DNA of 64,000 nucleotides, from assembly GCF_004379255.2 (NCBI RefSeq), contig NC_056049.1, forward strand, positions 1,178,001-1,242,000. Direction: 5' to 3'. Position numbers and translations under genes: made by a program. Every line of letters begins with the position of its first letter. The stretch's first letter is position 1. Positions 26,807 through 52,510 of this stretch are shown here, piece after piece. Under the pieces are notes generated by a model. That model made no database searches. It was given only the letters and a program-made list of their open reading frames with translations, and was not told the origin of the DNA. The stretch comes from Salvia splendens. Its lineage: Eukaryota; Streptophyta; Magnoliopsida; Lamiales; Lamiaceae.

Positions 26807-29800
26807 TAGTGTTTATTATAATAATTAAATTTACATTATGATCTAAATTAATTTGTTTTGTTTAATTAGATTTAGTGGGGTGGATTTTTTGAGGAGGTTT
26901 CAAGGGAAGAGAATATTGTTTGTGGGAGATTCCCTTAGCTTGAATCAGTGGGAATCTCTTGCATGCATGCTTCATGCATCGGTTCCTCGGTCAAACTACA
27001 CCATCAAAAAGACAGGAGGGGTTTCCACGTTTTACATGCCGGTAAAACTCTAATATTGATTCTAGATTATTTTATGATCTAAGGTTGTCATTTTGTATAT
27101 ACATATTTGAAGATTCATGCTGTATATATTGATACGATAGTCGCAGATCATACAATGAACAATGGTATAATTTGCGACACGTCATCAACATATATATTGC
27201 TTGAATCTACTAGATTCATACAATGTATGTTCGATCCCTGCAATATATGTGTTGGTGACAGTCGCAGATTACAAAACTGTTCATTGTATGATTTGAGAGT
27301 ATATCATAACATATATATTGTGTGGATCTTCTAATACGGACGGTGCTCATTGTACGTGTTGGCAATTGAAACTAAAAATATAACATATAACTGCCCCACA
27401 TCGGTGTCAAGAGAAAACTGAAACTAGTATATAAGTCTAATGGGCCCCTCCTCCTATCATCAATTGGTTTTAGGATGGAACCCATGGATTTCTATCATGG
27501 TATCAGAACGGGTCGCCGACTGTGGGTCAAATTTAACTGACCCAACAGTATATCTGGGCTGAAACCGAAAAAATGACTGACCCAACAGTATATCTGGACT
27601 TAAAAATTTGGGCCAAGTGGTCCAACCGATCGAAAAAAATTGGGCCGATTGTCCAATCGATTAGAAAAAAGTCCAACCCCTCCAAGGTTCACCTTGAAGG
27701 GTTTGAGGGAGGGTGTTGGCAATTGAAACAAAAAATATAACATATAACTGCCCCACATCGGTGTCAAGAGGGAGGGTGTTGGCAATTGAAACAAAAAATA
27801 TAACATATAACTGTCTCACATCGGTGTCAAGAGAAAACTGAAACTAGTATATAAGCCTCATGGGCCCCTCCTCCTATCACCAATTGGTTTTAGGATGGAA
27901 CCCAGGGATTTCTATCAGTACGAATAGTCATGTGAAACCCAGGGATTTCTATCAGTACGAATAGTCATATGTCATACAATAGTACGTGTTGATGACAGTC
28001 GCAGATCATACAATGAATGAACAGTGGTCCATATTGGACATGATCACCTTAATTACGACCAAATTGATGTAACATTGTTTGTGATTTTAGATTTGATTGG
28101 CTAATCAGAATTGAATCGTACTTGTAAATAACCGATTAATTAACTGTCTATTTCCACCCATGTCTGCATCTGTAGGAGTACAATATGTCGTTGATGTTGT
28201 CCAGGAATGCGCTATTGGTCGATTTAGTTGTGGACGGGAAGAGGGGGAGGGTTTTGAAGCTCGATTCGATCAAGAATGGGGAGTCGTGGAAAGGGTTTAA
28301 TATGCTTGTGTTCAATTCATGGCATTGGTGGGTTCATAAGGGAAGACAAACGCCGTAAGAAGAAGTGATTTTGTTTTTTTCTTTTGTGTTTTATTGTGAT
28401 TTGAGTTATTTTGCTTGGAATTATATATTGATTTGGTTAGGTGGGACTACATCCAATTTGGTGGTGAAGTGTACAAAGACATGGATCGATTGAAAGCTTA
28501 CGAGTTGGGCCTAAGAACATGGTCCAAGTGGGTGGATTCTAACATCAATCGTTTGCAAACTAGGGTTTTCTTTCAAGGCATCTCACCTACTCATTACAAG
28601 TAATAAATCTCTCTCCCTCTTTCTTCCACTCCATCTCCGGAACAATTCTACTTTTGTTCTAGATAATTAATGGAATTCCATTTTAATGAAGGAGATTAGA
28701 TTTATTCCGATTGGGGGAGTGACGCACAAGGGTTATGCGTCGTTATTATTGAACGACGCACAACCCTTATGCGTCGTTAAGTAACGACGCACAAGGATTA
28801 TGCGTCGTTAAAAGACGCATAAGGGTTATGCGTCTTACCCTAATGACGCATAACCCTTATGCGTCACACTGGTAAGCATTCCCGCCTGTCACCCGGGTGA
28901 CCCGGGTTCGATCCCTGGCAACGACGCATTTTTACTATTATTATTACTATTATTTATTAGAGTATAGTCATCGCTATTATAATAAGCATTATTTTATTTT
29001 CTTATAATAGTGGGTAGAACATTCATTAATCAATATTGCAGCAAGGACTTTTGGAAATTATTTTATAATAAGCATTATTTTATTTTCTTATAACATAAAG
29101 ACTTGGATTATTTAATTAATAGTATATAATATTATGCCATGTATTTTATATAAGCGTAATCTATAAGTGAATAAAGTTTTGATTTTTATGTTATTATACC
29201 ATTAACGGCATAAACAATAGTAATTTTTAAGATATTAAAAAATAAACTTAATATATAAAATAAAATAAACAGTGGTCATAGATAATAGAAGTATAAATTA
29301 ATTTGTCAATGTACATGTATTCGTTTTGGGGGACCAATTAGATTGGGCATTTATTCTTAACTTCTTTAATTAATTCTTTTATAAGAGTAATATCTATTTG
29401 CCAAAAACAAAGGTTTAGAATAACTCATTTTTATCAAATACTAATCACTTAAAAAAATGCGCCGTTGCCGGGGATCGAACCCGGGTCACCCGAGTGACAG
29501 GCGGGAATGCTTACCAGTGTGACGCATAAGGGTTATGCGTCATTAAGGTAAGACGCATAACCCTTATGCTTCTTTTAACGACGCATAATCCTTGTGCGTC
29601 GTTACCCAACGACGCATAAGGGTTGTGCGTCGTTCAATAATAACGACGCATAACCCTTGTGCGTCACTCCCCCAATCGGAATAAATCTAATCTGCTTCAT
29701 TAAAATGGAATTCCATTAATTCTCTAGAATAAAAGTAGAATTGTTCCCTCCATCTCCCTATATAAAAAAGGCGTAATTATAGCGATAATGTGATATTGAA

Positions 29801-30313
29801 AGGTCCAATACAATATAGTACTTCTCTTATAATAGACGTCACATTCAGATGATGATATGAGCTTTAAGAGAAGTTATTTTAATTCATACGAGATCGAGAT
29901 CGCATCTCTCTTTTAATTATTCAAGAAATTTATGTTTGCTCTCTAAATATATTTAAATTTCTGCATCCGTCCCTATCGTATATAGTGGCATCGAGTGGAA
30001 TAATGCATTACCGAACGGAGCATCGTGCTATGGAGAGACGGAGCCGATTCATGGATCCGTGTACCCTGGGCCAGATCTGCCGGCCGTGGCAGCAGTAAAG
30101 CGCGTGCTGAGAAACATGACGACGTCGGTGCAGCTGCTGGACGTGACCACGCTCTCGGCGCTGCGGAAAGACGGCCATCCGTCGGCATACGGCATCGGCG
30201 GGAAGAAGGGGAACGACTGCAGCCATTGGTGCCTCGCTGGCGTGCCGGATACTTGGAACCAACTGCTCTATGTCACTCTAGTTGCTAATGGAAATCAATT
30301 AATTCCAAAATAA
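26513..30313 (+). CDS. TBL/PMR5-type polysaccharide O-acetyltransferase, second tandem copy
   Basis: This is a 363-aa paralogue of the preceding gene. Exons 26513-26766, 26870-27041, 28176-28354, 28441-28599, 29986-30313. A hydrophobic N-terminus ([13 protein letters not shown]) leads into CDLFQGSW, then [10 protein letters not shown] (GDS at about 104-106) and [15 protein letters not shown] (D332 and H335), so the catalytic set is complete. The C-terminus is longer than in copy 1 (ends GNQLIPK). Two introns have been enlarged by transposons: intron 2 by a TRIM and intron 4 by a 1.1-kb foldback element. Both are true insertions with target duplications, and the splice sites are intact. A GT microsatellite follows the first donor site directly. 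Confidence 0.92.
27357..27917 (+). mobile_element. TRIM (miniature LTR retroelement) in intron 2
   Basis: Two full 141-bp LTRs (27357-27497 and 27777-27917) start TGTTGGCAATTG and end TTTCTATCA. The first is followed directly by a primer-binding site TGGTATCAGAACGGG (initiator-Met tRNA type). A purine-rich GGGTTTGAGGGAGGG precedes the LTR starts on the right. The 5-base target duplication GTACG is exact on both sides. A partial third LTR (27714-27768) lies just before the right one, suggesting unequal recombination or a tandem event. There is no coding capacity. Confidence 0.9.
27901..27968. repeat. 31-bp direct repeat spanning the TRIM/host junction
   Basis: The last 17 bases of the right LTR, the GTACG duplication and the following host bases (27901-27931) are repeated at 27938-27968. 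The repeat must have formed after the TRIM inserted. Confidence 0.85.
28870..28929 (+). pseudogene. tRNA-Asp(GUC) 3' fragment, left arm
   Basis: The sequence TGGTAAGCATTCCCGCCTGT then CACCCGGGTGACCCGGG then TTCGATCCCTGGCAACG follows a plant tRNA-Asp from the D-loop onward: anticodon GUC in its loop, an intact box B (GGTTCGATCC) and the 3' acceptor strand. The 5' acceptor strand and most of box A are replaced by the GACGCA repeats, so it cannot fold as a full tRNA. Confidence 0.85.
29458..29516 (-). pseudogene. tRNA-Asp(GUC) 3' fragment, right arm
   Basis: This is the inverted partner of the left-arm fragment. It keeps CCCCGGCAACGGC at the acceptor side and so is closer to a normal tRNA-Asp than the left copy (CCCTGGCAACGAC). 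Box B is intact and the 5' half is missing at the same point, so both arms descend from one capture. Confidence 0.85.
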
Positions 30314-35188: not shown

Positions 35189-37106
35189 TCAAAAACACCT
35201 CCGTCGCTTCAAATTATCACCACCGTGTGAACGACGGTTGTGTGTAGGCAAGGAGATTATATCGGGCACGAAGGCAGCAGAGTCGCATGGGGTCTGGGGA
35301 ATCATGGGCCAGTTAAGCCCGGATGCTGTCGGGGGAGATGGAATCTCCGGCACCGTCCAGAAATTATTCGGTGACTGTCCCATACACTCATCACCCTCGA
35401 CCTCCATATCAGCAACTCGAAGGATAGGCGAGTAGTCTGAATCTCCAAATCTCCCGGAATCCGCCTGAAACCATACCAAGATATCCAATTTATCTTCAAA
35501 CATATGCAATTTGTGAGGAATATAATGTTGGCGAAGATTAGATTTGAATCTAAAGCATCAACTTTCTATCCAAAAATCATATGGATATGAACAGATTGAA
35601 CCTTGGATGAGCCAGGATCCATGAGATCGTACTTCTGACCAAAGTCGCCAAGCTCAAGGAATTCATCCAACTGCCACGGCGAAATACTTTCAGCCGTGGA
35701 ACCTCCTGTAAAAGACAACTTCGACAATGAAATATCCCCACCTACACTGGCTTGGACAGGAAGAGTTTTATTGGATTGTTCAGCTGTTGCTACGTTCATG
35801 ACGCTCTTTGGAGTGGGAGGAGCATTCGATCCCAAGCTTCTCTCAACTGGAAGGGATGGAATTGGTGGATCAAATTTGGCTGCTTCGAGACCTACTTTAA
35901 CTCCAGTGAGCAAGAACCTCTGATGAGCAGCAACCAAGCGATTTGCAGTGTGTATAGAAACATCGCATCGTCTGCAAAGCAGAGCTCGATCCTCCAGGCA
36001 AAAGAAATAGCCTACCGTTTCCTGCATACATGGAGTGTGAATATCAAAACCTATGTAGCTCAGTAATTAGGGTCAAGCCACTAATCAAATCAACCACAAA
36101 AGATACTGCAAATGGAATCCCCAGATAATCGAAGTCAGAATACTATTGCAGCAATGAATAACAATTAATATTTCAGATGATAATCTCAGATTAACTCCCC
36201 AATCCTGAACCAAGCTTCACATATCCTGGTATCTAATTTGCAGTTTTAGTCAAAATTTTCCATAGCCTTCTAGATGGAGCAAGCGATCACATGGAAGGAA
36301 CCTAATTTCTGCATATCTCGAGGTTCGAATGTTTGATAATAATGAAACGTCTAATTTCACAAATTGATTATTTGCTTGAAGATGCTTCATGATCAGTGTA
36401 ACTAATTACAGCCACACGAGAAGAACACATCTACGTCGTATCTCTGTAACTCTGTTAATAAACACACAACACACTACTTCACATATTCAGGTACCTAATT
36501 TGCAGTTTTCGTGGAGGAGCAAGCGATCACAAGGAAATCGCCTAATTTCTGCATCTCGAAGTTTGTAATTGCGTAATGTGGAACTAACTATAGCCACACG
36601 TGAAGAACACATCTAATTCGAATCTCTGTTGCTAAACACACAGCACATTACTTCATGATATCATTCCAGAAATTGGAATTGCGATCGTTTTGAGTCAAAT
36701 TAGGCAAATCTATGGGGCACGAAGGAATTCAAAAAACTAAACTAGAAAAAACAAAATTGAATGCTCGTTATCATTTCAGAATTTGGCAGTTGTGATCGTT
36801 TTGAGCCAAATTAGGCAAATCTACGAAGAACGAAGGAATTCAACAAACCAAACTAGAAAATAACAAAATTGAAAGCTGAAAACGGAACAGAATTGAGATC
36901 TGAAAGGATCGTGAGCTACCTACCTGGCAAATATCGCACTTAGGCTTCTGCGACGAAGAAGTAGAGAGAGGAACCCTCTGGTGCATACTGGAGAGCTTAT
37001 TGGCAGCGTGCACCTTCTGATCGCAGTCGCCGCATAGCGCCGCCTCGTCGGCGCAGCAGAACACCTTCGCCTCCGCCGCCTCACAGACGTTGCACTGAAT
37101 CTTCAT
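35189..37106 (-). CDS. BBX22: double B-box zinc-finger transcription factor (BBX20-22 clade)
   Basis: A three-exon minus-strand gene (36924-37106, 35602-36021, 35189-35464) encodes 292 aa. B-box 1 occupies residues 1-47 (C5, C8, CCADEAALC, HAANKL, H42). B-box 2 starts about residue 57 (CDIC, then FFCLEDRALLCRRCD and HTANRL) and spans the first intron. There is no CCT domain, as in BBX18-25. The C-terminal part has EIPSPPTASGLNWP, a VP-type FVPDI near the end and a basic NRRSHGG...LKRRR tail, probably for nuclear import and binding to COP1/HY5. These factors promote seedling photomorphogenesis. The sequence fits BBX20-22; the BBX22 name leans on the neighbours VTE6 and NADK3. The start is the ATG of MKIQCNVCE. 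Confidence 0.85.
36215..36885. repeat. two diverged tandem duplications in the B-box intron 1
   Basis: A block with TAATTTGCAGTTTT, GGAGCAAGCGATCACA and CCTAATTTCTGCAT occurs near 36218-36437 and again at 36480-36640. A second block with GATCGTTTTGAG, CAAATTAGGCAAATCTA and GAACGAAGGAATTC-type sequence occurs at about 36662-36765 and 36772-36885, the last copy reaching the first exon's donor region. Confidence 0.75.
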
Positions 37107-37286: not shown

Positions 37287-37354
37287 GGAGTTGGATAGTT
37301 GTTGGAAGCTACGTGTGAACACGTATCACTCTGCGACTGTTGTTTTGAGGCGGT

Positions 37355-37535
37355 GAGGTGATGTTCTATAAAATAGTCGCAACTCGTAAAATCTTCTTTC
37401 TTCGTTAATAAGTTGAGGTGATGTTTTATAAAATACTCATAACTCGTAAAATCTTCTTTTTTCGTTAATAAGTTGAGGTGATGTTTTATAAAATAATCGT
37501 AACTTTGTAAAATCCTCTTTCTTCGTTAATAAGTT
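37355..37535. repeat. 60-bp tandem repeat, three copies
   Basis: Units start at 37355, 37415 and 37475 (GAGGTGATGTT.TATAAAATA...CGTAAAATC.TCTTTCTTCG). The shorter motif TTCGTTAATAAGTTGAATG continues as decaying partial units to about 37630. It lies directly upstream of the B-box gene promoter. Confidence 0.9.
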
Positions 37536-38719
37536 GAATGTTTGAACTAATCTTTTTTCTTCGTCAATAAGTTGAATGTCCGAATCACTAATAATACGAT
37601 TTTTCGCATCAATAAGTCGAGCGTTCGAATCACTGTTAACAAAAAGATAAGTTACTATTAATTTTTTTAGTGACCACATATGAATTTAATTTGGTGGTTG
37701 TGAGAGTTAAGTCTTATAAACGCTTTTCGAACTAATGTATTTTACTCTGATATTTAATCTCGTGATATATGATAATGTCATATAGAAATAGTGTTGAATT
37801 ATGATTATTGATCCTTTTATGTAAAAATATATGGGGAATTGGGGATCAGAGAAATCTTGAATAACTAAAAATCCTTTGTGTTTAATCGCAATTTTTTTTG
37901 TTTGTAAATTCTAATGGCAATATATTTATTTTGCAAAGTTAGTTTTTGTTGTCATGTCCATGTTTATCGATTGTCCACGTGAGGTTGAATGACAGCTTTG
38001 GACGTATTTCTTGTTAAGTGTGATTCATTATACAATTTTTATTTCATATGGTAATATCGTGTAATTTAAGATAATATATATGTCAAATTATCACAATATA
38101 TATTATGCTTTTCTAATTATATACTACTCCGTTGAATGACATTATACGTAATTCTTTTTTATATAAATTGAAAAAGTGGTTTTTGTTTCCATGTTCATGC
38201 TAGGCTGAATTTATGTTCTTCTTGTTAAGTGTGATTGTGTTGATTTTGAGATATATTTGTTGATATAATAGAATAATAAGGTTAAAGTAAAGAGTAAGTT
38301 CTTCCAAGTTACATAAATGTTTTTGAAGAACTTTACAAAGGTTGCTAATTTTCCAAAATTTTGAGGAGGTTACAATTTTAATTCTCCTGCCGTTGCATCA
38401 AACAAATTAAAGCCGAAGATGGAAAACGAGGGTTTTGTTAGGCCAATTAGATTTTGGATCGTCTCTATTCTCTAACCACTCGTTTGGTATGGGTACGTAA
38501 CGACATATACCTCATTTCCGTCGTTGTATCTATGATTTCTTTATGCCAACTCTTAAATTTATAAAAAAAAACATCATATTTTTAATAATTACGAGAGGTT
38601 ACATGCTAATAACCATATACTCCTATAGATTGTTTGAGTATTTCATTTGGGACATAAAATAATTTTACACTAATTAAAAAGGTTATATATTAACTACCAT
38701 TTCGCAGATAATTTAAATC
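37536..38719. other. intergenic DNA between the B-box gene and HEI10
   Basis: The two genes are divergent. The stretch is AT-rich with no transposon ends or exons that I can recognise. From about 38700 GC content rises into the HEI10 leader. Confidence 0.5.
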
Positions 38720-52164: not shown

Positions 52165-52510
52165 ATTTGTCAAAGATTTTGCCTTGATGATAGATCTACT
52201 CAAATGTCTTTATTGAACTCTGTACTAGTAAAGACTGATTTTTTGGATTGGATTTTAAGAGTTAATTTGTACATTTTGCCAAAAGATTTTAATTTGATGG
52301 TAGTTCTACTCAACTCTCTTTATTGAACTATGTAGTAAAGGCTGATTATTTTGGATTATATTTAAAGAATTTGCGTTGTGGAGTATTTTGTCAAAAGAAT
52401 TTGACTTGATTATAGTTCTACCCAAATGTCTCTATATATTGAACTGAGTAGTAAGGATGAATATTTGGATTAGATTTATAGAAAAGTAACATGTTCTTTT
52501 TTCTTTTCAT
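52165..52510. repeat. degenerate tandem repeat, three copies of about 115-120 bp
   Basis: Three successive units share AAAGA.TTTGACTTGAT.ATAG.TCTACTCAAATGTCT then TATTGAACT.TGTA.TAAGG then GATT.TTTGGATT (starts near 52172, 52281 and 52395). A faint fourth relative lies near 53065-53130. The unit matches no element I recognise. Confidence 0.75.

Follow-up and report, generated by a model that had tools for sequence, protein, structure and literature searches.

A probable Mutator-like foldback transposon of Salvia splendens carrying a tRNA-Asp gene piece inside both inverted arms

We found that a 1109-bp block at positions 28639-29747 of the window, the whole 64,000-nt stretch of Salvia splendens DNA that was analysed, is very probably a non-autonomous Mutator-like foldback DNA transposon, in which the half-sites of palindromic repeats would be binding sites and a piece of a tRNA-Asp gene a passenger. 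The block belongs to a multi-copy foldback MULE-like family in which a tRNA-gene piece is fixed inside the terminal inverted repeats. The kept half-sites of its palindromes suggest where a transposase would bind, and the family offers a natural experiment on which portions of the arms are required.

Anatomy of the element and its place in a probable TBL intron

The block consists of two inverted arms that are 97% complementary to each other and lie 519 nt apart. At 295 nt each, they agree with the first-pass annotation, which had put them at about 290 bp. That annotation had also claimed an exact 10-base target duplication, and CTCCATCTCC is indeed identical on either side of the block. Among lengths of 6 to 12, the flanks match at the element ends at 10 bp only.

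28600-29985, + strand: intron of a TBL/PC-esterase gene with the element; splice sites inferred from the reading frame and GT/AG
28629-28638, no strand: left target-site duplication CTCCATCTCC; from sequence, the flanks agreeing exactly at 10 bp and at no other length from 6 to 12
28639-29747, + strand: probable non-autonomous foldback element, whole, 1109 bp; from arm alignment and other copies
28639-28933, + strand: left arm, terminal inverted repeat, 295 nt; from arm alignment
28639-28720, + strand: left arm, outer part, terminus GGAACAATTCTA; from sequence (28639-28719 is the tRNA-free query)
28934-29452, no strand: A+T-rich spacer, holding a 31-nt direct repeat at 28977-29007 and 29063-29093
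29453-29747, - strand: right arm, terminal inverted repeat, 295 nt; from arm alignment
29666-29747, - strand: right arm, outer part, terminus GGAACAATTCTA; from sequence
29748-29757, no strand: right target-site duplication CTCCATCTCC; same basis as the left one

The spacer (28934-29452) contains no stop-to-stop reading frame of at least 50 aa. A single arm folds far better than its shuffles (z -13.5 as RNA and z -12.3 as DNA) because of the palindromes. Further inward than these, each arm carries the tRNA piece.

28721-28741, + strand: palindromic unit 1, left arm (this and the next nine from a motif scan)
28755-28775, - strand: palindromic unit 2, left arm
28786-28806, + strand: palindromic unit 3, left arm
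28814-28834, + strand: palindromic unit 4, left arm
28845-28865, - strand: palindromic unit 5, left arm
29521-29541, + strand: palindromic unit 5', right arm
29552-29572, - strand: palindromic unit 4', right arm
29580-29600, - strand: palindromic unit 3', right arm
29611-29631, + strand: palindromic unit 2', right arm
29645-29665, - strand: palindromic unit 1', right arm
28870-28926, + strand: tRNA-Asp nt 16-72, left arm; alignment, 93% over 57 nt; other copies have it at this position too
28929-28933, + strand: terminator-like T-run just past the tRNA 3' end; from sequence, also in most aligned related rows
29460-29516, - strand: tRNA-Asp nt 16-72, right arm; alignment, 96.5% over 57 nt

With at most three mismatches, GACGCAYAAGGGTTATGCGTC gave 15 matches at 10 places, every one within the arms, where 0.00 were expected (100 shuffles). 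The count of five GACGCA palindromes per arm therefore stood as first described; the exact sequence quoted for them did not hold for some units, since both orientations are present and the central bases differ. Rfam returned 30 microRNA-type matches in the arms, all under their gathering scores, and these are explained by the palindromes. In a full-text literature search with the palindrome letters, gacgcataaggg was the sole one of three longer words to be matched, the other matches being to the 10-letter word alone, and the titles listed concern other subjects.

The tRNA piece corresponds to nt 16-72 (57 nt) of a genomic tRNA-Asp gene, taken from locus L029, with four mismatches in the left arm and two in the right. 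The GTC anticodon and box B are present; nt 1-15, and with them most of box A, are absent. This matches the earlier description of the 3' three-quarters of a tRNA-Asp, with anticodon and box B and no 5' half, in both arms. In each arm the piece comes next after the fifth palindromic unit, on its inner side, and is followed by a T-run. Neither ARAGORN nor Rfam (at E<=1) called a tRNA at the arm pieces, presumably on account of the truncation. Intact tRNAs that ARAGORN reported in three other copies (L040, L046 and L047) were rejected as likely artefacts of the adjoining palindrome, the same truncated tRNA being present in the sequence. An origin of the palindromes from the tRNA acceptor stem, suggested by the likeness of AACGRCGCA, was likewise dropped: the final 8 nt of the tRNA agree with the palindrome block at 6 of 8 positions, as well as 21 of 65 windows from this tRNA do.

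Since the element contains the greater part of a tRNA with a T-run after it, one might also think of a SINE or another tRNA-derived retroelement. We regard this as extremely improbable, as a SINE would have 5' boxes A and B in a single retroposed unit, whereas here the piece is internal, occurs twice in opposed orientation and lacks the box A region. The two long inverted arms and the 10-bp duplications contradict a SINE as well.

Once joined at the inferred splice sites, the reading frames flanking the element give a PC-esterase match (PF13839, E 1.3e-47), and the only solved-structure relative of the host protein found was ESKIMO 1 (E 7.5e-27). Both matches bear out the initial assignment of the host as a TBL gene. 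The element starts 39 nt into the inferred intron and occupies 1109 of its 1386 nt; this copy would ride within the intron and presumably be spliced out. In the predicted intron RNA, nearly the entire arms pair with each other at -659 kcal/mol, a value without a shuffle control at that length. Upstream of the element, the TBL gene region also holds two tandem duplications, of 63 bp (96%) at 27705-27833 and of 32 bp at 27602-27670, and tandem repeats of 111, 60 and 110 bp lie elsewhere in the window at 36659-36877, 37354-37537 and 52166-52483.

Further copies and related subfamilies

Searching the genome with one arm yielded 82 matches from 40 scored of 1092 first-look candidates, a figure that is not a copy number. 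The matches fell at 31 distinct places, 28 of which were analysed, the window copy included. Two-armed elements were present at all 28 arm-selected loci, and their target duplications were exact at 10 bp in 20 cases, had one mismatch in 4, measured 9 bp in 2 (one of them with a mismatch) and were not found in the remaining 2. Further copies with the same ends, duplications and tRNA breakpoint, which the first-pass annotation had proposed to look for, are thus present, and the absence of such copies that it named as refuting a transposon did not occur.

Some of these copies are nearly identical. L020 and L027 agree at 99.8% over the whole element and L019 and L026 at 99.7%, and among 26 elements compared, the spacers of L002, L004, L007 and L015 are 98.8% identical to the window spacer over 519 bp; some of the family's movement was therefore recent. 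The two arms of one element are 94.0% alike on average, about the same as arms between elements, and so are not kept identical by conversion. For the comparison of termini, an orientation was assigned to 26 of the 28. An 85% identity filter had missed one arm in L009 and L017, which were left out for this reason, and on re-examination each has both arms. In 17/26 the two ends differ, with GAGACAATT at one and GGAACAATT at the other, GGAACAATT stands at both ends of the window copy and four others, and across copies the termini vary between GGAACAATT, GAGACAATT, GGGGAGATTCC and GAGTTCTTTC. G-rich termini such as GAG/GGG are typical of Mutator-like elements.

A second query consisted of the outer 81 bp (28639-28719), which contain no tRNA sequence. 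Here 40 of 733 first-look candidates were scored (733, too, is not a copy number), and nine listed places new to the sample were fetched and analysed. The tRNA piece was at the expected place in 9/9 queried arms, with between 1 and 9 mismatches over 45 nt (9, the limit allowed, in L062). It was also found in 7/8 opposite arms, one locus being without a second end in the stretch. Five of the nine loci have exact 10-bp duplications, one has a duplication with one mismatch, and two fit after a one-base shift of the right end, one of these being seen to nine bases only.

Over a table of 40 elements, at loci chosen partly by arm or tRNA, the piece is present in 79/80 arms. Loci with a single arm (L051, L052, L054), the partial ones (L047, L048) and a tandem array (L044) stand outside this table. 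The last of these, L044, contains at 399-2474 (G000:C9:6351000-6353700) five tandem copies of 414 bp that are 98% alike, the unit comprising part of an arm, with palindromes and the tRNA piece, and the adjoining spacer. It is a budding satellite array from the foldback family, an early step of satellite formation.

Could the copies be plain palindromic or segmental duplications, with no transposon involved? Two locus pairs have a target duplication in common, and some copies probably did arise by duplication. L003 and L009 (G000:C21) are probably a single insertion that was duplicated afterwards, while L061 (G000:C154) and L062 (G000:C9) are possibly a later duplication of one insertion, or a haplotig. 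Each of the remaining copies with a duplication, however, has its own one, leaving this explanation with next to no likelihood.

A tRNA-Asp pattern matched the genome at 193 places (92 forward and 101 reverse, about 100 of them listed), and its reversed control at 0. Among these places are real tRNA-Asp genes (10/10 loci returned) and elements of other subfamilies. In the latter the junction is nearly the same (GTCAC[AG]CTGGTWAG, from which a few rows differ by point changes); the sequence past the T-run is common to most of them, and their termini include GAGTTCTTTC or GGAAAAATTC. Twelve such elements are two-armed, with seven exact 10-bp duplications, three with one mismatch and two with none found; a duplication may have escaped notice in these two, as the search for the ends covered a limited range. 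The inner flank of the right arm in the window resembles, by eye, the longer arm of L040, which measures 501 nt. A nearly identical tRNA junction across subfamilies with other termini points to a single capture in a common ancestor.

Variation in the palindromes and the tRNA piece

The number of units per arm ranges from 2 to 6 across the 40 elements, with the 5+5 layout in 24/40. Variation was counted in 24 of the 26 oriented elements, L022 and L023 being dropped for their other termini, and again in 20 elements after near-identical copies were removed. Variable CpG sites make up 21/60 in the palindromes vs 18/26 in the tRNA piece (p=0.005), and 21/60 vs 17/26 with near-identical copies dropped (p=0.017), in a comparison that counts related copies as independent. 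Non-CpG variation is alike (0.0248 in the palindromes vs 0.0255 in the tRNA, per site per sequence). Inside the units, 82/139 changes concern the three positions at the centre, and the GACGCAYAA half-sites are mostly preserved.

The lower CpG variation suggests, in a modest number of related copies, that the palindromes would be functional and the tRNA a passenger, though it may also stem from local repair or differing methylation and not from selection. Because the half-sites are kept, and because long MULE ends are said to hold transposase-binding sites (PMC3310237), we read the GACGCAYAA half-sites as likely transposase-binding repeats.

The tRNA piece might instead have a role of its own, with box B recruiting TFIIIC or with a Pol III transcript running to the T-run and aiding spread or persistence. 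Each arm has a box B and a T-run, and the retention of the piece in almost every arm, among them the arms found with the tRNA-free query, speaks for such a role. Against it, the piece lacks nt 1-15 and thereby most of box A, CpG sites vary more in the tRNA piece than in the palindromes, and box B displays no clear conservation above the rest of the piece (5/18 vs 24/78 variable non-CpG sites). We consider such a role improbable. Slightly more doubtful still is the proposal that box-B-bearing foldback arms have seeded paired TFIIIC-type sites within strong hairpins genome-wide, in at least one intron; if true, transposon-made extra TFIIIC/Pol III sites would shape local chromatin or hairpin-derived small RNAs.

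The element could also matter mainly as a source of hairpin RNA, intron read-through giving a hairpin of near 300 bp from which siRNAs would be made that silence the family. The arm-to-arm pairing predicted for the intron RNA is consistent with this, and so is the excess of transitions at C and G over those at A and T in CG, CHG and CHH contexts, as expected for methylated copies. However, arm-to-arm folding is common to any long inverted repeat, and the CpGs in the palindromes vary little. As a model, we judge it possible but rather unlikely.

Class, mobilisation and comparison with known systems

Taken together, the 10-bp duplications and the long composite inverted ends, perhaps along with some GAG-type termini, support the initial suggestion of a Mutator-like element. 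The variability of the termini, and the elements in which no duplication was detected (two of 28 arm-selected and two of 12 in other subfamilies), weigh against the overall reading. Terminal inverted repeats are long, as in MULEs (295 nt at 97% in the window, 501 nt in L040), and the duplications fall within the 8-11-bp (mostly 9-10-bp) range of that class. As in foldback elements, the inverted ends are built of short internal repeats in variable number. A Pack-MULE would hold captured sequence between its inverted ends, whereas here the tRNA piece is inside both arms.

The mobilising enzyme is likely a MULE transposase, judging by these features. Made elsewhere, it would bind the long arms, with the palindromic GACGCAYAA half-sites acting as repeated binding sites, and excise the element, and insertion at a staggered break would leave the duplication of about 10 bp. 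An ancestor would have acquired the 57 nt at the end of a tRNA-Asp gene together with the terminator-like T-run, and the piece would have come to sit in both arms and been copied along as a passenger. By analogy, fork stalling and template switching could have brought it in, a capture route proposed for the repetitive ends of a fly foldback element (PMC8277862).

At L054, frames for a FAR1 DNA-binding domain (E 2.3e-15) and for a transposase domain of MULE type (E 1.8e-10) start just over 1 kb inside an arm whose end is an AT tract interrupted by an inserted block. A partner for this end was looked for over 25.9 kb and not found, and a second, related FAR1/MULE copy nearby (66-68% DNA identity, in two pieces) likewise lacks such an end within the sequence analysed; we do not claim the L054 gene as the autonomous partner. 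The same stretch, G000:C4:28354500-28380400 (L054/L057/L058/L059), contains two related FAR1-type MULE regions, long tandem minisatellites, and mutually similar opposite-strand frames that recall Ulp1 on inspection by eye, a match that Pfam did not return.

We know of no tRNA piece in FARE of Arabidopsis. Compared by description only, FARE is similar in its foldback ends and long palindromic repeats and is classed with the MULEs in PMC4486113. According to the same paper, MuTAnT of Medicago is a modular MULE-type foldback element with 9-nt duplications and a transposase partner similar to that of Jittery; it differs in being mostly 200-300 bp long and in targeting TA repeats, and tRNA has 0 mentions in that text (PMC4486113). 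Pack-MULE and Pack-TYPE elements are alike in being DNA transposons that carry and multiply captured host sequence (PMC8903248, PMC8277862). They hold coding DNA between their ends, whereas the Salvia family has a tRNA gene piece inside both arms, and these two texts have 0 mentions of tRNA. Among the matches listed, with subscription literature mostly outside, titles and abstract openings describe no MULE or foldback ends that contain part of a tRNA. We therefore rate the tRNA-bearing arms as new within the known foldback MULEs such as Tm1 and FARE.

The design is closest to that of Tm1, the Mutator/Foldback elements of root-knot nematodes (PMC3169594). Both have composite inverted ends, internal repeats of variable number and two short terminal motifs. 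In Tm1 the duplications measure 8-10 bp (mostly 9 bp), the arms are about 93% alike, and a host RNA structure, the histone hairpin, is carried by one group (PMC3169594). In the same account, the Tm1 motif is about 14 bp vs the 21-nt palindromic units in S. splendens, and Tm1 has transposase-encoding members, whereas the Salvia family would depend on a putative transposase. The Salvia splendens family differs from Tm1, so described, in its plant genome, its mostly 10-bp duplications and its tRNA-Asp piece.
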